DNA of 64,000 nucleotides from Dermatophagoides farinae (taxonomy: Eukaryota; Arthropoda; Arachnida; Sarcoptiformes; Pyroglyphidae). The position numbers and the translations under genes were made by a program. The stretch lies in assembly GCF_024713945.1 (NCBI RefSeq), contig NC_134684.1, positions 3,205,001 through 3,269,000 of the forward strand. The letters run 5' to 3'. Every line of letters starts with the position of its first letter. Position 1 is the stretch's first letter. The notes beneath the pieces were generated by a model. The model had not been told where the DNA came from, searched no databases, and saw nothing but the letters and a program-made list of their open reading frames with translations. Shown here in pieces: positions 11,998 through 62,427 of this stretch.

Positions 11998-12002
11998 TTC
12001 AA
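11998..12002. repeat. Target-site duplication TTCAA, left
   Basis: TTCAA immediately before the left terminal repeat, matching TTCAA at 16151-16155 after the right one. A/T-rich flanks leave the exact length (3-6 bp) slightly ambiguous. Confidence 0.6.
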
Positions 12003-12445
12003 AGGGTACCGGGTGGTTTTCGGTAAAATCTGCCCCCAAAAATTTTATTTTTTTAAAATGTTAGTCATGTCCATTGATGATTCTCGAGATGGTTTTTAGT
12101 TCATTCGGTCCACCCACTTCCGGTAAAATCGCGAAAAACAACGCGAATTTTCCAGATCTCACTAACTATGAGGTGGTATGCCTCAATTTTTTCTCACGAT
12201 AAAACTGATCTAATCAACATTTTATTCTGAAAATATCAAAGAAAAATATTTGGTGGAACATGTTCAAAAATCCGGAAATCCATTTTTTCACCATGTAAGT
12301 CTATGGAGTCCATCATGTGATGTCCACAACGTAAGTGTTTATGGTGTTCATTATTTGAGTCTATGGTATTGTGCATAGTGATTCGCTGTCTACAATGGCA
12401 ATCATTAATGGCATAAACTAAAAACATTCTAATACGTTATTGAAA
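12003..12445 (+). repeat. Left terminal inverted repeat
   Basis: Inverted copy of 15753-16150. It starts AGGGTACCGGGTGG and ends in ACGTTATTGAAA. Compared with the right repeat it holds extra bases around 12340-12400 in a CATAAAC-type motif region. Confidence 0.9.
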
Positions 12446-13155
12446 GATTTTATTTTTTTTATTAAAATGTGCACGATATGTCAATAAAAAATATTTTTGC
12501 AAATAACATTGTTCAGAATTAGCACCATGTCATTTATATATGAATGCCAGGCTCTCATAAAATAGCAAAAAAAAAAATCTTGGATACCTAAAATGTTAAG
12601 GAAAATCATAATCGTTATCAGCAATGAAGATTGTTTATCAGTCACAGTAACATACCCTACTATACTGATTTAAATGTTGATCAAAGTGTTGAAATCAAGA
12701 AAGCCGGACATGAAGAATTAGAAAAATAACTTGAAAAGCATGAAGATCAAAGAGAATAAGAAAAAAATCATCAACATGATAACTTGCGATGGTGATAAAG
12801 ACTATTGGGCGTCAGAATCTGATGGAATAAAATACTAAGCCCGACAGACAAAAATTGTGTGGCAATGTCGAAACAATTCAAAGAAACAAATAGAGAGAGA
12901 GAATACAAAAAGCAGACAAACTCTGATGAATGTCACGTGCAATCAAGGCTAATGTGTACACTTACACTCCTCGTTCAAATATGAACTGCTAGAAGATATC
13001 AAGTGATTGGTAGTTGATTCAATGCGAATTTTCTTTATACTATGAATCGTGGTCAAGATTCATAATATCATGGCGAGAAATCGCACGAAAAAAAAGATAC
13101 CAATTCTTGAATTTTACTAATAAATCTTTTTTGTATTCCAATATAATAGATAAAA

Positions 13156-15525
13156 ATGTCTGAACAAAAAGTTGCTTCAAGCATAAATGACAAAAAATGT
13201 CCCATTTGCAATTTTTATTTGAAAAAAGGTTCAAAAGTTGGACGAAAAACAATCAAAACGGAACAAGATGTGCAAAATGCATCGAGGTTACTTGAAGTAA
13301 ATGTCAAAGTCAATGATATTTTGTGCACAAAATGTAATTCAAAGCTATCTAGGATGATATCCTTAGAAAAGCCAAATATTTATGATCAATGCCAAACTAC
13401 TGCCGGCACAAGCAAAACTCTTACTGAACAAATCCAAACTACTGCCGGAACAAGCAAAACTCTTACCAAACAAATCCAAACTACTGCCGGCACAAGCAAA
13501 ACTCTTACCAAACAAATCCAAACTACTGCCGGCACAAGCAAAACTCTTACCAAACAAATCCAAACTACTGATGAACCGCGACCGATGGACATTTTTGATT
13601 TAATGGAAATGTCCTCTGACTCATCGATGGAGACCGATGCTACTGATTCTTGGATTGATACGCAATTATCTTGTCCATCTTCATTATCAATTGAAGAACC
13701 AATCTATAACGAGTCAACTGAGGAACAAGTGCCTAATCCAAAAGTTCATCTACCATTTTGTAGACCAATAATCACCCATAAATACTGTTTTATTTGTTCT
13801 GCGACTACCAATTTGATCACCATACCATTCGACGCCCGAAAACAAGTTTTTATTAAGCGAAAAATTTTTGTGCCCAACGGAAACCGATGCTGTCGTCATC
13901 ATTTGATAAAAAAGCGACTATACGAAGAAGATGTGGATGCTATAGAAATCTATAGTAACAATAGTCAAATCGACAGCGATGAAATTGTCAAATTCTTTTA
14001 TTCATTATCTGACAATCCCAGCAATCTTCATGGCCAAATAGGTGATCGTTCGGTGTCGGAAAGACATTTTTGGTCGCTTACTGGCCACACATGGCAACAA
14101 ATGGAGATTATAAGCAAAAAACTGGTGTCGATGAAAAATTCAGGTGTCCGTAGCATAACGCAAGCCTTAGTAACGTTGCTATATAAAATGAGAACAGGAG
14201 TTTCTAATGATATAATTGCTGCAACAGTTGGCTTGGAGTCCAGAAAACAGGTGGAATCGCACATTAATTCTGTTCTGGAATCTTTCTCTACAGACATTTT
14301 ACCGACAGAATTTGGCTTCAAATCACAAACTCGACAGTTTTTAATCAATGAACGAACATCTCCAGTAGCTAAAAAATTGTTCGACTTCGATGATCAATTA
14401 ATGATAATATGTGATGGCACATACGTGAGACACCAAAAGAGTTCAAATAATATATATCAGCGAAAATCGTATTCCATGCATAAGAATACATCATTATGCA
14501 AACCATTTACTGTTTGCACCACCGATGGCTTCATTCTAGATGTTTCAGGCCCATTTAACGCCAAAATGAATGATGCCCAAATACTTGATTTTCTTCTCCA
14601 AGAAACTAATGGCCTGTCAACTATTTTACGGCCTGGTGATATTTTTGTGTTGGATCGTGGATTCAGAGATGTCGTACCAGTATTGAAAAAGAAAGGGTAC
14701 AAAGTATTGATGCCAGCATTCAAAGACAAAGGTCGAACCCAATTGACATGCCAACAATCGAATGAATCAAGATTCGTGACAAAAATTCGATGGGTGGTCG
14801 AAGCTATACATGGCATCATTGGCCAAAAATACGACCTACTTCACCGCCAATATAAAAATTATTCACTCAAAAAATTGGGGTTATATTGCAGAATTGCGTG
14901 TTATTTATATAACACTTTTGGCAAGCGATTGACCTCCGATTATAATATGGTGGACACGATAGTGAACAGGATGAAGTCGAAACGCCATGATCAAAATTAT
15001 TTGGCCGAATTGGTTGAAGAAAATCGATGGAACCGCCGATTGACGGCCTATAAACAACTTAATAGCGAAGATTTGTTGGATTTTCCGGAAATGACGATCG
15101 ACGAATTAAAAATCTTTTTCACGGGAACATATCAACTTGGCCAGTCGATATCATACCTGGCTGAAATGTTAAATGATGACGACACTCTCACAATACGGTA
15201 CGTTATAGAAAGGCCTGGCATCATCCACCTTAAAGTACCATCACGACATGTCAGCGCCAAAAAATATCGGTGCTATGTCGAATATGAGCCCAACACCAAT
15301 GGTACAGATGGGATAAAAGGCCATTATTGCGAATGTGCCAATGGCAATCGAACAATCGGATGTTGTTCACACGTGGCCGCTATCGTATATTACCTGAGCC
15401 TCGGCAGGTATTTATCGCGAATATTTCGACCGGCACAAGCATTAACCAACATCTTCGACCACCATGAGGACGTAATCGTGATTGATGAAGACAGCGATGA
15501 CGACGGTATGGGTACGGAAAACTAA
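13156..15525 (+). CDS. DDE transposase, N-terminal Cys motifs and C-terminal SWIM finger
   Basis: Single open frame of 789 codons, ATG at 13156, TAA at 15523. In order: a Cys motif CPIC (residues 15-18) paired with CTKC (about 56-59); four perfect-frame 14-residue repeats QTTAGTSKTLT(E/K)QI (about 79-135); an acidic Ser/Thr stretch; a second Cys/His motif CFIC (about 211) with CCRHH (about 245); and a DDE core with D420 in CDGTYVRHQ, D500 in VLDRGF and E549 in WVVEAIHG. It ends with a SWIM-type CxC-CxH zinc finger at 725-739 (CECANG, CCSH). The core matches DDE_Tnp_4/HARBI-type endonucleases. The product should cut and join the element through its TIRs. All three catalytic acids are present. 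The codon pattern gives no sign of decay. Confidence 0.9.
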   Translation: MSEQKVASSINDKKCPICNFYLKKGSKVGRKTIKTEQDVQNASRLLEVNVKVNDILCTKCNSKLSRMISLEKPNIYDQCQTTAGTSKTLTEQIQTTAGTSKTLTKQIQTTAGTSKTLTKQIQTTAGTSKTLTKQIQTTDEPRPMDIFDLMEMSSDSSMETDATDSWIDTQLSCPSSLSIEEPIYNESTEEQVPNPKVHLPFCRPIITHKYCFICSATTNLITIPFDARKQVFIKRKIFVPNGNRCCRHHLIKKRLYEEDVDAIEIYSNNSQIDSDEIVKFFYSLSDNPSNLHGQIGDRSVSERHFWSLTGHTWQQMEIISKKLVSMKNSGVRSITQALVTLLYKMRTGVSNDIIAATVGLESRKQVESHINSVLESFSTDILPTEFGFKSQTRQFLINERTSPVAKKLFDFDDQLMIICDGTYVRHQKSSNNIYQRKSYSMHKNTSLCKPFTVCTTDGFILDVSGPFNAKMNDAQILDFLLQETNGLSTILRPGDIFVLDRGFRDVVPVLKKKGYKVLMPAFKDKGRTQLTCQQSNESRFVTKIRWVVEAIHGIIGQKYDLLHRQYKNYSLKKLGLYCRIACYLYNTFGKRLTSDYNMVDTIVNRMKSKRHDQNYLAELVEENRWNRRLTAYKQLNSEDLLDFPEMTIDELKIFFTGTYQLGQSISYLAEMLNDDDTLTIRYVIERPGIIHLKVPSRHVSAKKYRCYVEYEPNTNGTDGIKGHYCECANGNRTIGCCSHVAAIVYYLSLGRYLSRIFRPAQALTNIFDHHEDVIVIDEDSDDDGMGTEN
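13391..13572 (+). repeat. 42-bp coding minisatellite in the transposase
   Basis: Four tandem 42-bp units (CAAACTACTGCCGGCACAAG at the start of each) plus a partial fifth, nearly identical, in frame. The near identity points to recent expansion. Confidence 0.95.
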
Positions 15526-15526
15526 A

Positions 15527-15671
15527 GCTGGAGCCTGATCAACCAACTGATTCAACATAACAACTATAGCCATCATATCTACTATTCATAAACATTATAA
15601 TTGTATTTTAAAGATGCTGGAGTCCTGATCAACTAACTAATTCAACTTAGCAACTATAGCCATCGTATTGA
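15527..15671 (+). repeat. Two direct copies of a 55-bp 3'UTR motif
   Basis: 15527-15585 and 15616-15671 share a GCTGGAG(T)CCTGATCAAC start and an ACTATAGCCATC end with a few changes. They lie between the transposase stop and the right TIR. Confidence 0.7.
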
Positions 15672-15752
15672 TTGTTTTTTTAAATATTGTATTTTTATAT
15701 ATGTTCACTTTTTAAAAATTGTATTTTCACATTTCAATAAAAAAATAAAATA

Positions 15753-16150
15753 TTTCAATAACGTATTAGAATGTTTTCAGTTTATGGTATTACCATAAAC
15801 ACTTGACATCATAAACACTTACGTTGTGGACATCACATGATGGACTCCATAGACTTACATGGTGAAAAAATGGATTTCCGGATTTTTGAACATGTTCCAC
15901 CAAATATTTTTCTTTGATATTTTCAGAATAAAATGTTGATTAGATCAGTTTTATTGTGAGAAAAAATTGAGGCATACCACCTCATACTTAGTGAGATCTG
16001 GAAAAATCGCGTTGTTTTTCGCGATTTTACCGGAAGTTGCTGGACCAAATGAACTAAAAACCATTTCGAGAATCATCAATGGACATGACTAACATTTTAA
16101 AAAAATAAAAACTTGGGGGCAGATTTTGACCGAAAACCACCCGGTACCCT
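15753..16150 (-). repeat. Right terminal inverted repeat
   Basis: Reverse complement of the left repeat, ending CCACCCGGTACCCT. It is followed directly by TTCAA. Confidence 0.9.
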
Positions 16151-17451
16151 TTCAATGATTTTTTTTCTCTTTATTTGCAACGAATATGTCAGGAATTGTT
16201 TCGATTGTTGTTATATTTCCGGATATTGTAATTTTGTAATGGTAAATAAATGCAAAAACAAATAAATATACGCCTTAAACGGTGAATCCATACATAATCG
16301 TCATGTTTATGGCATTGGACCAATGAATCAATGAATAAATAATTTCATCAATGAACTAATCATCATCATTTTCATCTGCCGGAAGGAAAGCTGTCAAATG
16401 ATTCATTTTGCAAAAAAAAAAAAAAAATTTCGTAATGCTCAATGAAGCAATTTATTTTTGTTTCATTTTTTTTTCTTAATAAATATTCAAAAATCAATCA
16501 CAATAAAATCACTATCGATAATTAATCAATTGACTAATCATTGATAAATCAATTTCACAATGATAAGAACAGAAGAAATTCTTTAAAAAACAAGAACAAA
16601 AAAAAATAAATTTCGAAACCAAACATTTCACCCACAACATCATCATCGTTATCATGTGGACACAGGATATGATTTCGTAACACAATCATCGATTGTGTCA
16701 AACAGACGGTTAGAGAAATAACCAAAAAAAAAACTGATCCACAATTCACTACTGCTACATAGCAAAACAGACAGGCTTATCTCAAATTACGCATTACAAT
16801 AGGGTACATGTATTCTATATTCTATAAAATTGATTTTTATGTTCAATTCAAAGGAATAGAGAAAAAAAAATCCATGGGATTTACATTGTTGAAATCTATC
16901 TATTTACGTCGAACAATTGAAAAGAAGAAGAAGAAGAAAACAACAACAACAACAAAAAACTAATCACCCATCGACGTTTCGTTTATTGATTATTTTGCAA
17001 TATTATTAGATTCTGGAAATTTCGTAATTGTGAACAAAAATTTTTTTTTTGATCAGTTTCAAACGAAAACAAGAATATTGGAGAATTCTCTAGAATGGCC
17101 AATTTTTATTTTCTGTGTAATAAAAAATTGAAATTTTGTTGTTCAAATTTCAAATTTCTGAGTTCAATTTCTCAAACTTGAACAATAATAATTGAATTTC
17201 CTTTTTTTTTATTTATCCATTTTGTTTCGCTTCAGATATTGTTGAATCAATCAATCGATCGATGGATTCAATGAATTCAATCTACTGTTGTATTATTATT
17301 ATCCATGGCCACATGAGGAATGTTCAAGTTGAATAAATGACATATATGAAAAGTGGAAAAAAATGGTCGTACGCTTGAGATACAATGGATGCATGAATTT
17401 TCGTTGTTGTTGTTGTTGTTTTTTGTTTATTCAAAATCCATAATTTCAAGC

Positions 17452-27096: not shown

Positions 27097-30000
27097 TCAA
27101 AATTTGAGATCGGGAACAACTTGGTCAAAATTCGCCGATAATGATGATGATAATAATAAACTATGATGTGCACAACATGATGGCAATAATGATGATGATG
27201 GCTGTGATGCAAACAGATAATGATGATGATTATGAGCTGCTCCTGTTGCTACTGTTTGCTGCTGTTGTAATGCTCGTATAGATGATATTGTCGATGTAGA
27301 TGGTGATGATAATAATGTCATCGACGTTGATGGCGATGATGATGATGTTGATTGTTGTTGACCATTATTGCTACTATTGATGTTATTGTTGTTATTATTC
27401 ATCATCATCGCCATTGGTGATTGTGGTGGTGATTGTTGTGACAAATTTTGATAACGATTCGGTTGCCGATGATAATTATTATTATTATTATTATTCTGGT
27501 TATTATAATTATGCTGCTGCTGGTGCTGCTGCTGCTGATGATGATGATAGGAATTCTGATTTTGTTGTTGTGATGGAAAGACACCGGAAGAAGGTGGAAC
27601 TGTTGCTATTGATGTTGTTGAATTTCTTTTCATCATAATACTATTATTCATTGAAATGGATGGCCGAAAAGAATCAAACCAACGATGTGCTAATGTATCG
27701 TCGGCTGTTAAACGTTCATCCGGATCCATACGCATTAATGATCGTATTAAACATTTTCCATGTTTAGATAAATGATCTGGAATGTAATAGGAACCACGAC
27801 GAATCTTACAAAACACTGATGATGGATTCACATCATGAAATGGATAACGGCCAACTAACATTGTATAAAGTATGACACCCATTCCCCAACAATCGGCTGC
27901 TAGGCCACTGAATGAATTGGATAAAAGAATTTCCGGTGAAACATATGCTGGACAGCCATGTTTATCGGTTAATGTATCATCATCATCAAAAAGGGAAGCT
28001 CCTTCTAAGGTTTCCAATTTTAATTGGGTTCTAGGCCATTAACAAAAAAAATGGACATGGGAAAAATTGAAGAGAAAAAAAAATTTTTGGTTGTTTATTT
28101 GGTTGCTATTCAACGAGTTTCACAAATTCAAATCGATAAATAATCTGAATATATCAGACAAGTTTCAATGCTATGCTAAATAAAAATCGGAATATACAAC
28201 TCACCTTTCTTTATTGCTAAAAATAAATTTCCTAAGTTTGAGATCTCTCAATATGATTCCGTTTCGATGACAATCGGCAACAATTTCAACAATCTGTCGA
28301 AACAATGGCATTGCTTCATTTTCACGTAATCTTCGTTTATTTCTTACATATGAATGTAGATCACCAAAGGACGGACTGAATAATATAAATGAATGAACAC
28401 GGCCAATGATAATTTTTTGTACCTGATTAATACCCGTATGACCATCCATACGAAGATGTGGTGCAAGAAAATCGTAATAGTTTTTACTTAAAACAACCTT
28501 TATATGTATAAAAAACAAAAACAAAAACAATCAACAATCATTCATCAACTCTTTTTATTATCATTATAAATTCCTAGTGTCAAATATAACAACAACAACA
28601 ATAACAAAAGAAAAATTATTATCTAAAAAAGGAATGAATAGCAAGTGACATGGATTTCTTTTTTTTTCTATTGCTCGACTTATTTTTATTTTCCAGGTTA
28701 TCACATTGAAAAATATAAAACAATTCGTGACTGCCCGACGCCATCAACAACAACAACATAAAATGTGAAATGTGGAACAACAACAACATACATCAAGTTC
28801 CAGGGCATTGCATCTTAGTAAAAGGGAGATCACCATCTATGTACAGAAAAAAAACTATTGTGACCTGAACTAGAAGTGAATGAACGAAATGAGCAAAAAA
28901 AAAAAAATATAGAAATCCTGTTCTATCTATTGGGGCAAAAAAAAATCCTGATTTGTGTTTGCGGTCGGTGGCCTGGCTTATATAAAATTTTGATGATGGT
29001 GATGGCCTAATAGACACAAACATACACATAATATAACAATCATCATCATCATCATCATCATCATCACGAATGAAAAATATTTGAGCCAATGTACTCAATT
29101 AAGGTTATGACTGTATTCAAATTTTTTTTTTGCTTTCTTTTCATATTGCGTGTGTGTGTGTGTTTGATGTTGACACAGAAATCTATCCATATCAAACATA
29201 TAAACACATCAAAGAAAAATGACTTTAAACTCTATTCATAAATTCAATTTAAAATAGGAAAAAAAAAATAATAATTATCCATCATACCTTACACCAAAAT
29301 TCTTCGGCAGTATTCAATTCTAAACAACGATATAGATTACTTGCTTCAATTTGACTTGTAAGTACAAAATTATCGCCAAATATTAATGGTAAATTCAATT
29401 TGATTGGTACATTTATTTGTGCCGGTGCTGTTGTTGCCAATATTGTTGGCTGCGGTGTTGATGGCTGTGGTTGTATCCATGATGATTGTTGATTATTTGT
29501 AATACAATGATTCGTCAATGATATTGTCGATGACGGTAATGACGATGATGACGACGAAGATGATGATGAAAATAATGATGGTGAAGAAATTATTGATCCA
29601 GAATTCGGACTCGACACATTTGGACTAGTGGCCAATGATGATGATGGTTTCCACCCAGGTTGATTTGGATGGATATGAAATATTTTATAAAATGGATTCA
29701 CAGTATTATAAGATGATGAAGGCGATGAATCATTTGATGGCCAATTTGGTATCGGTCCAAATGTTGAACCATTTGATATTGTTCGTACTAATGCCTGTGT
29801 ATTTAAACTTGATAATGGACTTGGCGATAAAATCGATGAGGATGATGATGATGTCGATATGTCATTATCGATGATCGGTGTAGTTGGTGTTGATGATGAT
29901 GGTGAGGAATTTTGTCGAACATTGGAAGATTGATTATTTGATAACATCAATGTTGTCATTGATGATGACCGTAGATTTGACCATTGAAATGAATGATGTA

Positions 30001-34729: not shown

Positions 34730-36409
34730 TCAATGTGAAGCCGCTTTTATCTTTTCTTTATCATTATTACCGGCTTTTGCCTGATATTGTTGTATACGTT
34801 CCATTATGACTGGCCTAAAATGTCGAATCAAACCCTGGAAATGAAATATTGAAGAAAAAAAAAATTTTAATGAAAACTAGTTCATAATGGGTGTGTAACT
34901 CACTTGTACAGGCCATGCAGCACCATCGGCAAGAGCACAAATAGTATGTCCTTCAATTTGTTTGCTCATTTCGAATAACATATCAATTTCTTTTGGATCA
35001 GCTTTTCCTTCCACAAGACGCCACATAATTTTATTCATCCATCCGGTACCTTCTCGGCAAGGTGTACACTGGCCACAGCTTTCATGTTTATAGAATGAAG
35101 CTAAACGTGCAATAGCTTTGATCACATCTGTTTGTCGATTCATAACTATCAATGCAGCCGTACCAAGACCGGATTTATTCTCCACAAGTGAATCAAAATC
35201 CATCAATACGGTTGAGCAAATATCTTTGGGTAGAATAGGCGTGGATGATCCACCAGGTATAACGCCAAGTAGATTATCCCAGCCACCAATTATTCCGCCA
35301 CAATGCCGTTCAATTAATTCTTTCATCGGAATGGACATTTCCTCTTCAACAGTACATGGATTATTCACATGACCGGAAATGTTGAACAATTTCGTTCCAC
35401 TGTTACGTTGACGGCCAAACGATGCAAACCATTTGCCACCACGACGACAGATTGTCGGTGCAACGGCAATTGTTTCCACATTGTTTACGGTTGTAGGGCA
35501 ACCAAATAAACCGATATCAGCTGGAAACGGTGGTTTCAACCGTGGCTTTCCTTGTTTACCTTCAATCGATTCGATCAATGCCGTTTCTTCACCACAAACA
35601 TAGGCACCAGCACCTCGATGAACGAATACATCGAAATCATAACCAGAACCACAGGCATTTTTACCAAGCAAACCAGCCTGGTAAGCTTCCTGTATGGCGA
35701 TCTGAAGATTCGATGCTTCATTATAGAATTCACCACGAATATAAATATATGCAGCACATGCACCCATAGCACGTCCTGCAACTAAACATCCTTCGACCAA
35801 TTTATGTGGATCATGACGCATAATTTCACGATCTTTGCAGGTACCAGGTTCTCCTTCATCGGCATTGACAACCAAATATTTTGGACGACCATCAGATGGT
35901 TTGTTCATGAAACTCCATTTCAAACCAGTGGGGAAACCGGCACCACCACGTCCACGTAATCCGGACGTTTTTACTTCGCCTTGTATCCATTCATGTCCTT
36001 TTAGTAATATTTCTTTTGTTTTATACCAATCACCCTAATTGATTATGAATCACACAATGAATCGAATGTTAAACATGAATTATGGACATACTCTTTTAAG
36101 GGCTCCTTTTAAACGCCAATCATGACGGCCATATAGATTGGTGAAAATACGATCTTCATCGGCTAATGGGCCGAATTTTGTCTACAAATTTAAAATCATA
36201 ACCAATTCAGATATTATTATCGATGTTTTTTTTCATTTTTACCTTGGGTGGTGGTGAATCCGATGCTGAAGTTTGTTGGAAACGTATCTGAAATAATTTA
36301 ACTTGTGATGCTATCAAGATTGAAAGATAGCAGGTTACAAGAATGAATAAATAAATGATTGCACATATTTACCGGTTAATGTTCGATGATGTTGTAAAAT
36401 GGATTTCAT
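34730..36409 (-). CDS. NDUFV1: NADH dehydrogenase flavoprotein 1 (complex I)
   Basis: Catalytic 51-kDa subunit of mitochondrial complex I: binds NADH and FMN and carries the N3 Fe-S cluster. Five exons: 36409-36373, 36310-36243, 36181-36092, 36034-34904 and 34834-34730 (1,431 nt, 476 aa; human 464). The N-terminus [19 protein letters not shown] is a basic, probable matrix-targeting presequence. Then [16 protein letters not shown], the Gly-rich [13 protein letters not shown] nucleotide/FMN loop, [16 protein letters not shown], and the cluster ligands in [12 protein letters not shown] with a fourth Cys in HTICALADG. Exon 2 was started at 36310 because only that acceptor keeps the frame with exon 1. 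Head-to-head with CHRAC1. Confidence 0.97.
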
Positions 36410-37541: not shown

Positions 37542-40017
37542 TCAACCACGATTGGGCATTTTTTTCACCTTATAAATTCGTACCAACCAATGTTCAGTAG
37601 TATAGGCTTCTTCCAATGTGGTCAATTCAAAATCTTTATTACCGATTTCTGTACCACGAACACGATCATAGCCAGGCGGTTTACCACCTTCCGTATATAC
37701 TGATCCAAAACGATAATAAGACATTTTATACATCAAACAATTCAATAATGTTTTTGAACCTTCTTTATCCACACGAAATTCACCACTGGTTGTATAATAA
37801 TCTTGTTCTTTTATATGGCGACCACGATCAGTGGAACCACCAATACGTACCATCCATAAGAATTTATTAATATCATCTGATGAATATCCAGTTAGGCCAC
37901 CAAATATGATCAATACATAATCAACATCTAATTCTTGCATTATTTTATATGCATGTTGTTCATCCGATGCCATTGCTTGGCCAACACGTGATATATGTGT
38001 ATTATTCCAAGTATTATTATCCACAAGTATAGTACGATTAGCCATTGCCGTTATTTGATAGCCATAATCCCACCAGGACATAATTTTTGCATCTTCCGGT
38101 GTGTTCATTCGTAGCCAATAATATGCTTCACGAAAATCATCGAATATAATTCGACTACCATCATGTGTACGTGCGGATAATACAATCGATGGTGAACTAT
38201 ATGCTTCGGATGTTACCCAAATACAATGATAACCATATGATAAAAGCATACCAGTAGCTATGAATACAAAAACAGTGGCCACTTCTTTTTTCATTACAAA
38301 AGTATTTTCAATTCGTTTCTGTTTACGTTCAGATTGATGATGTGTTGTCGATGATGATGATTGACCTGTTGTTGAATCCAAATGGCCACAATAAATTGTA
38401 AGCAATCTTGATATGCCAATACCAGAAAGTATACACATGACCGGTGCCAATACCAACATTAATCGTACCATAACACCCTGAAATTCATCAAAAATTATTG
38501 TTAGAAATTGGAAAAAGAATTTTAGTCCAACTATACTTACAGCAAAATAAATACTAGTCACACCATATAGTATGATGAATATATTATAATCGGTAAGATT
38601 TTTAAAACAAAAATATAATCCAACTGGAAATAGAAAGACAAGAATCTGTAGATCAAAATAGAATGATGACCATGATGTTGGTTGATGTTCGGACACTGAT
38701 GCAATGATGGGTATATTATTTTTGGCATATGATGGATCCAATAATGAATAGAAACGGCCAGTCCATGGTGATATTTCTATATTGTGAATAGATTGTATAT
38801 ATATGTGTTAATCACTATTGTTTGAAATTTAACAAACTAATAAATGCTTACTGCCAATAATTGTCAATATAATGATGGCGGACAATGAAATAATACCGAT
38901 AAATAAAACTAATGATCTAAATAGAATACTATAATATTCTTGTGAAAGTTTTGAACGAATAAATGAATTGAAAGCATAAAGTTGACAAAGACCAAAAACA
39001 CCAAATGCTGCCATATGTTCACTGGATTGAACTGGTTGAAAACCAACAAACGGTATCTGCATAGATAACAATGTTCCTATGCAATACATCTTTAAAGAAG
39101 AAAATTTAATAATTTAAAAAAAATATTTTTTCAGAAAATCAAAAAAAAAAATTTCGACTTACCGTCGAATAGGCAACATATACCCGTTTGGTAAACCGAC
39201 CGGTAATAATCAATGTAAAAACATGTAACGGTATAAGATTGATAAGGAAAACATAACCACCCCATGATGATACCATGTAGAAATAAGCTAATGAACAAAG
39301 ACAAGACCAGAATATTGATCCAGTTTTCACTGCTTTAATCCACATATAATAAGTGAATAGCATACAGAATATGGCTATTCCTTCGTTATCATATGATCCG
39401 GCAACTGAACGCGAGATATAACCAGGTACAATCGATATCATTGCAGCAGCAACTAATCCGGATGCTTCATCTGATAATTCTTTTGTCAATGCATATGTTA
39501 TGATTGTAGTAAGTGATGAAAATAATGGTGCTAAAAATACACAAACATCTTTTATATCGACAGGAAAGCTTAACATTTTAAGTAAATTAAATAGTACAGC
39601 CGATGTGACCATCAATCCTGGATAAATGGTACCACCGATAATACGACCCAATGGATACCAGGCTCGATCATCAAACCAATTATGGAAATTATAAAAACCA
39701 TTTTCAGCCAAATATCTTGTTGTACGATAGTTGAAATATGGATCAAATTCATGTATAACACTTTCGAAACGTAACACAGAAAATAATCTTACGAAAAATG
39801 CTACAATGTAAACAAATGGAAAATATTTACGAATATCTACAAAAATGAAAACCGACAAACAAAGCTTACCCAACAAAGCTGATATGACCAATATGACAAT
39901 TTTCATTAGGCTAACTGTCGAACTACTACTGTTGTTGTTGTTGCCAAAAATTGTCGTATCATTTTTGGCCATTGTTTGGCTATCTTTTTTAACATTTAAA
40001 AACGAATGTCCAGCCAT
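37542..40017 (-). CDS. STT3A: Oligosaccharyltransferase catalytic subunit STT3A
   Basis: Membrane enzyme of the ER that transfers the lipid-linked glycan to Asn in NxS/T. Five exons: 40017-39870, 39800-39163, 39089-38852, 38776-38541 and 38477-37542 (731 aa; human 705). Visible: multiple hydrophobic segments; the first luminal-loop motif in [45 protein letters not shown]; and the catalytic-site WWDYG (W555-W556-D557) within [16 protein letters not shown]. The C-terminus [17 protein letters not shown] fits STT3A rather than STT3B. The first and fourth introns (69 and 63 nt) are multiples of three with no stop in frame, so unspliced RNA would still read through. Their removal restores the family sequence. 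Confidence 0.97.
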
Positions 40018-44600: not shown

Positions 44601-46681
44601 TCGTTCTCCAAGACAAGTGTTTCAAATGTAAGTTTTTTTTTCTACGTGTGTTTTCTGTGTTCTTTGTTTCTTCTGTTTCAAATGATAATGATGATAATGG
44701 AACATATTGCCATGTAAACTTGTTCCATTCCATTCATTACGAATGGATAGTAAACACGATTCGACGATTTTTTTTGTTTTGTTTAGTCGTTAGACTATGT
44801 GTGTGTGTGTTTGTGTGGCTTCCATCTGTTTGCGAATTTTTTTTTGTTATTCGTTTGTTCCACATGATAAAAAGGTTTCATTCAATTTTCGTTGTTCCAT
44901 TTCTTCTCTTTCATTATCAATTGACATTATCTTTTCTATGTAAAAAAAACAAGAACGATAGAAAAAAAAGAACTGTTGTGTATATATCGACATCTTTGTT
45001 ATTGTCTTTTTTTTTATTATTATTTGGCCAAAATAATCGAAAACATTAAATCATCAAAATGTCCTTTGTGTGTTGTGTTTTTTTTTCTAATTACGAAATT
45101 CAAGTAGCCACATAATTAGTGAATCGTGTGAAAGACGTGGTGGATTACCAATGGATTATCATCACATTTTGAACCCCATCATAGGTATTTTTTTTTCTTC
45201 CAAATAATCAGATCATCATCATCATGCATTTCATATGGGAAACGAAGAAAATTCATAATCAAAAGTCATCAATTCAAGTCACACGACTTTTTTTTATTTT
45301 TATTTTCCTTAAAATATTTATAAGTTTAGCCTGTGACAGTGTTATAACCTCAATATCATCATCATCACTCCTCATGTGTTGTATATATAAGAAAATAAAA
45401 ATTTTTTTTTTTGCTGCCTTTACACACACATTCACAATGTTTGTATATATGATGTTATGTGGTGTGGCATATAGCATGTCATCATTATCGAGATATGATG
45501 ATGTTGATGTAACAAATACGACACAACACACACACACACACATCTTATATATGTGCTCATCATCATCATCATTGTAGCCGTATAGTTTTGATTTAATTTT
45601 TTTTTCTTGATTGAAAAACATATATATACACACAAACACACAGCCAACAACAACAACATATTTTTGTGTAATAATAAACGTCTTAGATCTCACAATCTTC
45701 TTTGTTTTTTTTTTGTTGATTAATTTTTTTTTTCATTGTTTGTTTCATATAAACACAGTTTTTATGTATTCAGAAAGTAGGTGTGTGTGTGTGTGTAATT
45801 TGATCAAAGAATTTATATATTCATTTTTTTTTTTTTTTTTTAGTAAGCAAACCCATTTTTATTTCTACCCATAATAATAATAATTTTATATATGATGGAA
45901 CTTTTTTTTGTGAAAAGGTCAATCTTTTATTTTCTCTTCATAGTGGGTGGTGGGTGGGTTTGGTTTAATTTTTTTTCCAATAAAATTTTTTTTTTGTTTT
46001 CTTACTTGTGCCATAAACCAATGATGACAAGAAAAAAAAACACACACAAATGACAATCTTGATCAAACTCAATATGTGTGTGTGTAGCTTCTTGGTTGGT
46101 TTTCTTTTTATTATGATGATGATGTGATAATAATGATCATTATCTGGTAAATTGTTTGTATTGGAATTTTTTTTTTTTTGAAATTCGAATGTTTAAAATT
46201 TTTTTTGTTTTCCATCAAGTTTCGTTCGATTTTTTTGTTGTTGTTGTTGTATCGAACAATCATTGTTTTTTTCTTTCTCAATTTTTTTTTTTTGTTGGTT
46301 GTTCATTGTTTTTCTCATGGCTAACCTGTTTTTTTTATTTGATTTCTTTTTTTTCTGTTTCTTTCATTCTTTTTTTCCATAATAGCGGTGAATTTTGATT
46401 TTGCTGAAGTGGTGCACACCACTATATACACCAAAAAAAGATGATTGTTTGAATTGAAAAAAAAACCGAACCGACAAATCTGTCTCTTTTTTTTGCTGGT
46501 CATTTTTGGTTGGTGGCTGAAAAAAAATTCCTGGAAAAATCGTGAATAAATAGTCAAAAAAAAATTTGATCATCTGTTCTAATATATAAATAGAAGAATC
46601 AAAAAAAAAAAAAAACAAAATCAATTCGTGATCGAATATATATTTAAAAAAAAATAGGAAAAAATTAAAAAAAAAGTAAAA
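40018..46681. other. Gene desert of about 6.7 kb
   Basis: No recognisable exon on either strand. (ATC)n at 41659-41689, (CAA)n near 41805, A/T homopolymers and (CA)n tracts explain the open frames. Confidence 0.5.
41659..41689. repeat. (ATC)n microsatellite
   Basis: About ten perfect ATC units, one of many such tracts in the window. Confidence 0.95.
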
Positions 46682-47719
46682 ATGTCCAAAACAAATTTAT
46701 GTAATACGGTTGTTGGTGATAAATATCGCATTATACGGCCAATTGGTGCCGGTTCATTTGGCGATATATATCGTGCCATTAATCTACAGAATGGTGAAGA
46801 TGTTGCCGTCAAAGTTGAACCAGTATCAGCACGACATCCACAACTACGTTATGAAGCACATGTTTATAAATCAATACAGAATTGTTTTGGCTTTCCAATG
46901 CTCAGATATTTTGGTATTGAAAAAAATTATCAAATTATGATCATCGACCTATTAGGTCCATCATTGGAAGATCTATTCTCATATTGTCGACGGCGATTTT
47001 CATTGAAAACCGTATTAATGTTAGCCGATCAGATGTTGATCCGTATTGAATATCTACATTCACGTGGATATATTCATAGAGATATTAAACCCGATAATTT
47101 TCTAATGGGTATTGGTCGTTTTTCACCCCGTGTATATCTTATTGATTTTGGTCTGGCGAAGAAATATTATGATGTACGTACAGGAAAACATATTGAATAT
47201 CGTGAAGATAAACATTTAACAGGTACGGCACGTTATGCATCAGTCAATGCTCATTTAGGTATCGAACAAAGTCGTCGTGATGATCTTGAATCATTTGGTT
47301 ATGTGTTGATCTATTTTCTTCGTGGTTCATTACCATGGCAAGGTCTAAAAGCATCGAATAAGAAACAAAAATATGATCGTATAACCGAAAGAAAAATGTC
47401 CACACCAATTGAAGCCCTTTGTTTGGGTTTTCCAGCCGAATTTCAAATGTTTCTCAATTATTGCCGTGGTTTACGGTTTGAAGAAGATCCGGATTATATG
47501 TATTTACGGCAATTATTTAGAATATTATTCCGTAGTCATCATTATGAATATGATTATGAATATGATTGGACGATACGTAAAGAGATTGAAAGGCGAGCTG
47601 GTATTGATAATAATTATAATAATAATAATATGGCCAATACAAAAATACCGGCTAATAAACAGCAACAAATGCAACAGGATTCAACGAATGTACATGATGG
47701 TTTATTTGAAAAGAAATAG
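46682..47719 (+). CDS. Casein kinase 1 alpha-like Ser/Thr kinase, intronless
   Basis: Single-exon frame of 345 codons, ATG at 46682 in AAAAATGTCC context. Kinase features: Gly loop [13 protein letters not shown]-binding Lys in [17 protein letters not shown]; catalytic loop [12 protein letters not shown]; the metal-binding Asp in [10 protein letters not shown]; the CK1-specific [23 protein letters not shown] in place of APE; and SLPWQGLKA. Closest by memory to CK1 alpha, including [16 protein letters not shown] and [21 protein letters not shown]. The C-terminal 45 residues are Asn/Gln-rich and unlike CK1 alpha. Expected to phosphorylate acidic or primed Ser/Thr sites (Wnt, Hedgehog and circadian substrates). 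All catalytic residues are present. Absence of introns, unlike its neighbours, suggests a retrocopy that stayed functional. Confidence 0.93.
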
Positions 47720-60941: not shown

Positions 60942-62427
60942 TTAAAATGATTCATTTTTAACAAAACGTGTTATCATATCCAATGCTACTTTCGGTTGAT
61001 CATATGGTAATATATGGCCAGCATTTCGAATAATCACCTGATAAAGATTACCAGCTTGCCGTACATAACCTGCAACTGATGGATCATTTGGACTAATACG
61101 ATAAATCAAACGTTTAGCCATACGATATTCATTCGATCGTTTCCATTTTAAATGTCTTAAAAAATTTTCAGTTAATGGTGCAGCTACAATTATATCCAAT
61201 TGACCACTGTAAAACATTAATCGATAATTTCCATCCAATAATTTTTCAATCCATGGACTAACACTGGCCATCATATCATTGAGTAGATGTTCTTCAACAC
61301 GAATAGAATCATCGCCAAAATGTAAATTGCCCACATGTATTGATTCACGTGTTTTAGCTGATGCCAAGAATTTAGAATAATAACCAAAATCATCTGGCTG
61401 TCGATCATAAAGAATGTTGTAATAGAAATTCAAACCAGTTGCATTGTAGAAATAGGATTTTTTATCAAAATCACCATCCAAAAGACGATCAAATATTTGT
61501 GCTGCTTTCATCATCTGTCCATCATCAATGTATTTTATGGCCAGTCGTTGTTCTTCTTTGAAATGAGCACGTTGAATTTCATCGATTAAACCTACTTGAT
61601 ATAGGTAATCTCCATAATCAACCATATGTTTTGGATCGGAAAATCCATCACCAATGGCTAAACCTTGAAGATTTATGCCAGATTTCTCTGCTTCTTTACC
61701 CATGCAGTGAATTTTATATCCAATAGCCGGAACATATTTTCCGGCATAAGATTCACCAGTCAAAAAGAATGGATTTCCTTTATATTCATAGTAAAGAGTG
61801 AAAAATTGTCGTAAAGCTTCATAAAGATTTTCGGCAACATCTACTTCGTTGGTAGCATAACCACGATCATCTTTAGTGAAACTAAAACCGGTACCGACCG
61901 GATTATCAATGTATAAAACGGCAAATTCCCGATTCCAGGTACTATCACGCATATAAGGCTTTCCATTTGCCGAAACTTTGATTGGGCCATTTTCGACAAA
62001 CAAACCAAACAAAGAGGAACCACCAGGACCGCCTTGAAGCCAAAGTAGCACGGGTACATCGGTTTTTTCTGTCTAAATACGATATTTGAAATTAGATATT
62101 AGATAATATATTGTTATGAATACATACCAATGCAGGAAAAAACCAGAAAAACATATTCGAATCATAAGTCTTGTTTACGGTAAAAAATCCGGAATAACTT
62201 TTCAAATCAAGACCAGTTAAGCCATTAACTTCACTTAAACGACGTCCTTTATCCAATTGACCGGATTCAATATATGGTGTTAAAAATAATGGTTTCGAAT
62301 CAATTGTACCGATCAATCGATTAGCCGGTTCAGTTGGTGGATAAAGATTTTTTAGGAAAAAACCATTTGATAATCCAATGATCAATGTGATTATAAAAAT
62401 TATCGAATTAATCTTAATCTTAATCAT
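60942..62427 (-). CDS. Serine carboxypeptidase S10, vitellogenic-like (CPVL type), copy 1
   Basis: Secreted or lysosomal peptidase that removes C-terminal residues. Two exons, 62427-62128 and 62072-60942 (476 aa; human CPVL is also 476). The signal peptide MIKIKINSIIFIITLIIG ends near SNGFF. Then LKSYSGFFTVNKTYDSNMFFW, the oxyanion-hole LLWLQGGPGGSSLFG, and the triad: nucleophile Ser in GESYAGKY, Asp in SGQLDIIVAAP and His in NAGHILPYDQP. GFSFTKDDRGYA and IGDGFSDP are family landmarks. The start at 62427 was chosen for the signal peptide; upstream is only a TTG. A second copy lies just upstream on the same strand. Confidence 0.95.

Follow-up and report, generated by a model that had tools for sequence, protein, structure and literature searches.

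An intact, presumably autonomous DNA transposon, probably of the Spy group, in the house dust mite Dermatophagoides farinae

A 64,000-nucleotide stretch of the Dermatophagoides farinae genome (contig NC_134684.1, positions 3,205,001 to 3,269,000; hereafter the window) contains an element that we assign, with a probability of about 0.9, to the Spy group of the PHIS superfamily as an intact and presumably autonomous cut-and-paste transposon, on the basis of described traits. Spy elements are characterized by insertion into AAATTT without a duplication and by a single transposase ORF (PMC4482050, PMC11304231). The family to which the window element belongs shows the Spy traits tested, namely the AAATTT target, the lack of a duplication (9 of 10 insertions, one of the ten being from a second family), one DDE ORF and the length of the terminal inverted repeats (TIRs). 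D. farinae as the host agrees with the mite-allergen family Blo-t-5, which has two matches on C4 and one on C1 of this genome and none in 14 control genomes; Der f 5 and Der f 21 are placed on chromosome 4 of a D. farinae assembly (PMC11074847). The features of the element are collected in Table 1.

Table 1. Features of the window element; positions are those of the window.
Feature	Position	Strand	Evidence
Complete Spy-type DNA transposon, 4146 bp, GGGTACCGGG...CCCGGTACCC	12004..16149	+	Ends common to family copies elsewhere
AAA adjoining the left end, target sequence and not element on the Spy reading (left half of AAATTT)	12001..12003	+	22/22 intact termini
TTT adjoining the right end, completing AAATTT	16150..16152	+	Flanks of family copies
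Left TIR, outer block	12004..12347	+	345 columns, 96.5% with right end
Right TIR, outer block	15806..16149	-	345 columns, 96.5% with left end
Left TIR, second block, register shifted relative to outer block	12406..12471	+	66 columns, 90.9%
Right TIR, second block	15728..15792	-	Pairs with left second block
Transposase ORF, 789 aa, uninterrupted	13156..15525	+	DDE_Tnp_4, E 4.4e-15
N-terminal module 1, C15xxC18 ... C57xxC60	13198..13335	+	Four Cys kept in 4/4 aligned sequences
Tandem repeat of a 42-bp unit, in frame within the transposase gene, four complete units	13393..13560	+	Not present in the other three aligned sequences
N-terminal module 2, C211xxC214 ... C245C246, H249	13786..13902	+	Kept in 4/4 aligned sequences
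Catalytic core D420, D500, E549	14413..14802	+	Residues between: 79 and 48
SWIM-like motif C725xC727x9C737xH739 (CxCx(9)CxH)	15328..15372	+	Also kept in second intact family
AATAAA 3' of the ORF, possible polyadenylation signal	15736..15741	+	Pattern only

The initial annotation had placed the element at 12003..16150. The element itself stands, with ends GGG...CCC, but on the Spy reading one target base on each side had been wrongly included. Its description of complete ends is borne out by the match between the window termini and family copies at other sites, and that of long TIRs with little divergence agrees with the outer blocks, which differ at 11 alignment positions in their first 340 bases. 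In the window, the inverted repeats extend over 359 nt at 94% complementarity when flanking bases are included (11998-12356 with 15797-16155), and the element has an additional inverted-repeat pair of 61 nt at 89% complementarity.

The uninterrupted transposase frame and its three catalytic acids were likewise found as first described. The Pfam DDE_Tnp_4 match covers residues 420-586 and is accompanied by a second one, to DDE_Tnp_1 (E 3.7e-10). The DDE_Tnp_4 core and the two Cys modules of the initial annotation hold. Its C-terminal SWIM finger is present as a SWIM-like CxCx(9)CxH motif; the Pfam SWIM model stays below its cut-off on the window transposase (12.3 bits versus 19.6, E 0.13); on the transposase of a second intact family described below, this model scores 18.3 bits against the same cut-off of 19.6 (E 0.0017). 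Units of the 42-bp repeat begin at 13393, 13435, 13477 and 13519, and part of a fifth unit follows at 13561. Apart from the transposase frame, the element has just one ORF of at least 100 aa, a 120-aa antisense frame inside the transposase; a second sense ORF of that length, and hence a Myb/SANT ORF, is absent from the element. No MULE transposase domain occurs among the six Pfam families matching up to E 1, and a sequence search of the PDB with the transposase gave no match at E up to 1. An IMG/VR scan with the window transposase alone, which detects close relatives only, yielded no relatives, and phage records gave a single match, a cyanophage 'transposase' with 31% identity over 20% of the query. 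Elsewhere in the window, Pfam identifies genes for two protein kinases (27097-28038 and 46658-47719), the complex I 51-kDa subunit (34877-36034), STT3 (37542-38807) and a serine carboxypeptidase (60942-62072).

Family copies and their flanks were gathered by the genome search that the initial annotation had proposed, with about the first 100 bases of the TIR. The query comprised 101 bases of the left end, including the first outer A but not the next two, and gave at least 24 matches in the D. farinae genome, with the terminus kept in 22 when up to 7 mismatches in 34 bases were allowed. Outside these 22 are C6:1159830 and C2:285528, whose alignments begin at query bases 10 and 18 and whose terminus is lost. 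Nine two-ended copies contribute 18 of the 22 termini, and the other four come from one-ended copies, which do not enter the two-ended count. Among the short copies, C8:681999-683317 and C4:4848886-4850204 are both 1319 bp long and 100% identical, and C3:2913983-2915344 and C2:7260056-7261415 are 99.6% identical; the 300-base flanks, compared within each pair, show no similarity. Since they are identical and lie at unrelated sites, the two 1319-bp copies are taken as recent. The TIRs of both young pairs measure about 460-484 bp at 97-98%, so that the 1319-bp copies are mostly foldback, with two 461-base arms, and several short copies carry a piece of the transposase gene corresponding to residues 463-509. 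We also observed a 3085-bp family copy (C10:381791-384875) with an interior rich in diverged internal repeats, in which no transposase gene sequence was detected under the search settings applied.

AAA lies directly outside GGG in all 22 intact termini. With a flank background of 8.5% for AAA (7.5% for TTT), this would occur by chance with a probability of about 7e-25 if the termini were independent. Joining the flanks gives AAATTT in 10 of 10 two-ended insertions, nine from this family and one from the second family. These ten insertions were searched for duplications of 2-15 bases at four boundary settings, in which 0-3 outer bases were taken as element. No flank match of 2-15 bases was found at any setting in the nine two-ended insertions other than the window copy, and the only matches among the ten were TTCAA and, within it, TCA, both at the window copy. 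Accordingly, none of the ten has a 2-bp match, and thus an AT duplication, at the four settings, none has a 3-bp TWA duplication, TCA being the sole 3-bp match, and none has a duplication of 9-12 bp, even with one mismatch allowed.

TTCAA does flank the window copy on both sides, and the initial annotation had taken it for a 5-bp target duplication; it is best read as a chance match, because the sister copies, young ones included, show no duplication. The coincidence is an uncommon one, given that 0 of 90 mismatched pairs of left and right flanks match over five bases at the setting that gives TTCAA at the window copy. Age does not explain the missing duplications, since they are absent from all four young copies (on C8, C4, C3 and C2) of the near-identical pairs as well. 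On the chance reading, the preinsertion site of the window copy is TTTCAAATTTCAATG, which is itself repetitive. Empty sites corresponding to nine of the joined sites were looked for in the same D. farinae genome and none was found, so the treatment of AAA and TTT as target rather than element rests on published work. There is no duplication whether they are counted as target or as element.

A second Spy-type element was found at C1:3958188-3962255 by protein similarity to the window transposase (54% identity). It has an intact 716-aa ORF, ends of the form AAA|GGGTATC and TIRs of about 590 bp at 98%. Beyond the element's own two ends, this TIR has no matches other than two partial stretches (74% and 82%), and the element is apparently present as a single copy. 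Other related frames were noticed in the genome. Two neighbouring open frames of 529 and 522 aa (C10:1249820-1253665) are related to the window transposase, with a gap of eight residues following the first catalytic D and, in the 522-aa frame, the second of the pair, the catalytic E replaced by K. No TIR-like inverted repeats were found in the examined loci, the frames have no SWIM region, and dN/dS between the two is 0.60; the pair may represent either decay or adoption by the host. An open frame of 262 aa at C4:655258-656037 consists of Cys modules of the N-terminal type (36-44% identity) with no DDE match and, judged by its sequence, could be a DNA-binding part adopted by the host. At C2:4726056-4726487, a 302-aa open frame that is not among the listed matches to the window transposase also matches DDE_Tnp_4 and is possibly a Harbinger-type gene.

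Published Spy elements provide the frame for this assignment. Spy proteins are about 700 aa long in the five elements studied (PMC4482050, PMC11304231), and Spy TIRs span lengths of 5-691 bp, with 467 bp in cgSpy of Colletes gigas (PMC11304231). Eight Spy elements were counted in seven arachnid species (PMC11304231). Of the cgSpy insertions obtained in cell assays, about 60% fell at AAWTT (PMC11304231); the cgSpy target is thus a matter of preference and less strict than in the mite, where 10 of 10 insertions conform. The window element resembles Spy and cgSpy, the latter by described traits and not by sequence, in AAATTT insertion without duplication, a single DDE ORF, a transposase of about 700 aa, TIRs that can be long and an arthropod host. 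It differs in that its host is an astigmatan mite and in its SWIM-like motif, which goes unmentioned in the parts of the Spy texts used here. The original Spy paper is reportedly that of Han 2014. The literature matches listed, which do not cover the arachnid host names in PMC11304231, include no title on Spy in Dermatophagoides, and a literature search on transposons of house dust mites bearing terminal inverted repeats found no report.

The other groups compared share single traits with the window element. PIF/Harbinger elements belong to the PHIS group and have a DDE transposase, but long TIRs are rare among them, about 93% being under 60 bp, and they are distinguished by a TWA duplication and a second ORF with Myb/SANT, neither of which was found in the mite element (PMC4482050). 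The initial annotation was thus right, by target as well as coding capacity, that the element does not fit the usual Harbinger layout, and Harbinger is ruled out on these two counts. ISL2EU, the published sister of Spy (PMC4482050, PMC11304231), is likewise a PHIS group with TIRs usually starting GG. It is set apart by an AT duplication and by a further ORF that carries YqaJ (PMC4482050); the mite insertions show no AT duplication and YqaJ has no match anywhere in the D. farinae genome, which rules ISL2EU out by target and by coding capacity. The duplications described for NuwaI (CWG), NuwaII (C|TNA|G) and Pangu (ANT) (PMC4482050) were not seen, the only 3-bp match being the TCA of the window copy. 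With Mutator-like elements the window element has long TIRs in common, and Mutator-like elements carry SWIM fingers. They differ, however, in their 9-12 bp duplications (PMC11304231), and the missing duplication of this length together with the missing MULE domain excludes them.

Whether the mite element stands apart from Spy was weighed on the same evidence. The initial annotation had suggested a separate lineage and had named as evidence against it a described family holding the transposase core and having the same TIR and target-site pattern. As regards TIRs and target, Spy is such a family (PMC4482050, PMC11304231): its target behaviour is the same, it has one ORF, and its TIRs are long in some members. 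The suggestion is not supported. A separate lineage making 5-bp TTCAA-like target duplications is scarcely credible, as the repeated TTCAA of the window copy has no counterpart at any boundary in the nine other two-ended insertions, very recent copies included. A sister lineage of Spy, sharing the AAATTT target, lying outside the described Spy clade and marked by the C-terminal SWIM-like motif, appears improbable. Both intact mite families retain the motif, and SWIM is not mentioned in the main texts of PMC4482050 and PMC11304231; the absence of a word is weak evidence, however, PMC11304231 draws no more than a DNA-binding and a DDE domain, and ISL2EU, the published sister, has an AT duplication, unlike the mite element. 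We retain membership in the Spy group as the preferred reading.

The possible activity noted in the initial annotation, which called the element apparently intact, is supported by the open ORF, the complete ends, a pairwise dN/dS of 0.19 and the near-identical short copies at unrelated sites. The dN/dS value was obtained over 177 codons between the window transposase and a decayed relative on C7 with two stops, and does not separate the two branches. It is nevertheless conceivable, although we consider it rather unlikely, that the family is dead and that the window copy is intact by luck: among the protein matches listed, no further copy of its family is intact, the other relatives being truncated or interrupted by stops. 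The identical short copies at unrelated sites speak against a dead family, as does the low pairwise dN/dS, within the limit just given, and activity in human cells is reported for cgSpy, an element of similar layout (PMC11304231). The window family has likely been active recently, and the window copy may be active at present. From its sequence, the window element is a plausible source of transposase for the short copies that moved recently. The identical 1319-bp pair may derive from another copy, since the window ends are only 89.5% and 93.9% identical to the ends of that pair.

Beside the observed anatomy, the placement between AAA and TTT without a duplication and the recent spread of short derivatives, we propose a mechanism for the movement of the family. 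The transposase would bind the long TIRs, with the paired-Cys modules and the SWIM-like motif as candidate binding parts, and would excise the element at GGG/CCC. It would then join the element to the two target strands at points facing each other exactly, midway through AAATTT between AAA and TTT, and as a consequence no gap would be filled and no duplication would arise. The window transposase, or a close relative, could move the short copies in trans.

The foldback structure of the short copies invites a further speculation. For dust mites, an absence of piRNAs and transposon silencing through Dicer siRNAs have been reported, although one sentence of the same paper, contrary to the rest of its text, has piRNAs involved in D. 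farinae (PMC5886382). In the main text of the original paper (PMC5805368), the terms 'hairpin', 'terminal inverted', 'DNA transposon' and 'DNA element' do not occur. Foldback short Spy copies, if transcribed, might produce hairpin RNA and from it siRNAs that restrain the intact element, an idea to which we give little weight. If it were true, young deletion copies would act to silence the autonomous element from which they arose.

The analysis corrects a lead: the flank match at a single copy had resembled a target duplication, and comparison with the sister copies indicates that it is not one. Spy leaves no duplication, unlike most cut-and-paste groups, and one member of the group is under development as a gene-transfer tool (PMC11304231). 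Our results extend this group, in a mite of relevance to allergy, by a family that shows indications of having moved recently and by a further intact family.
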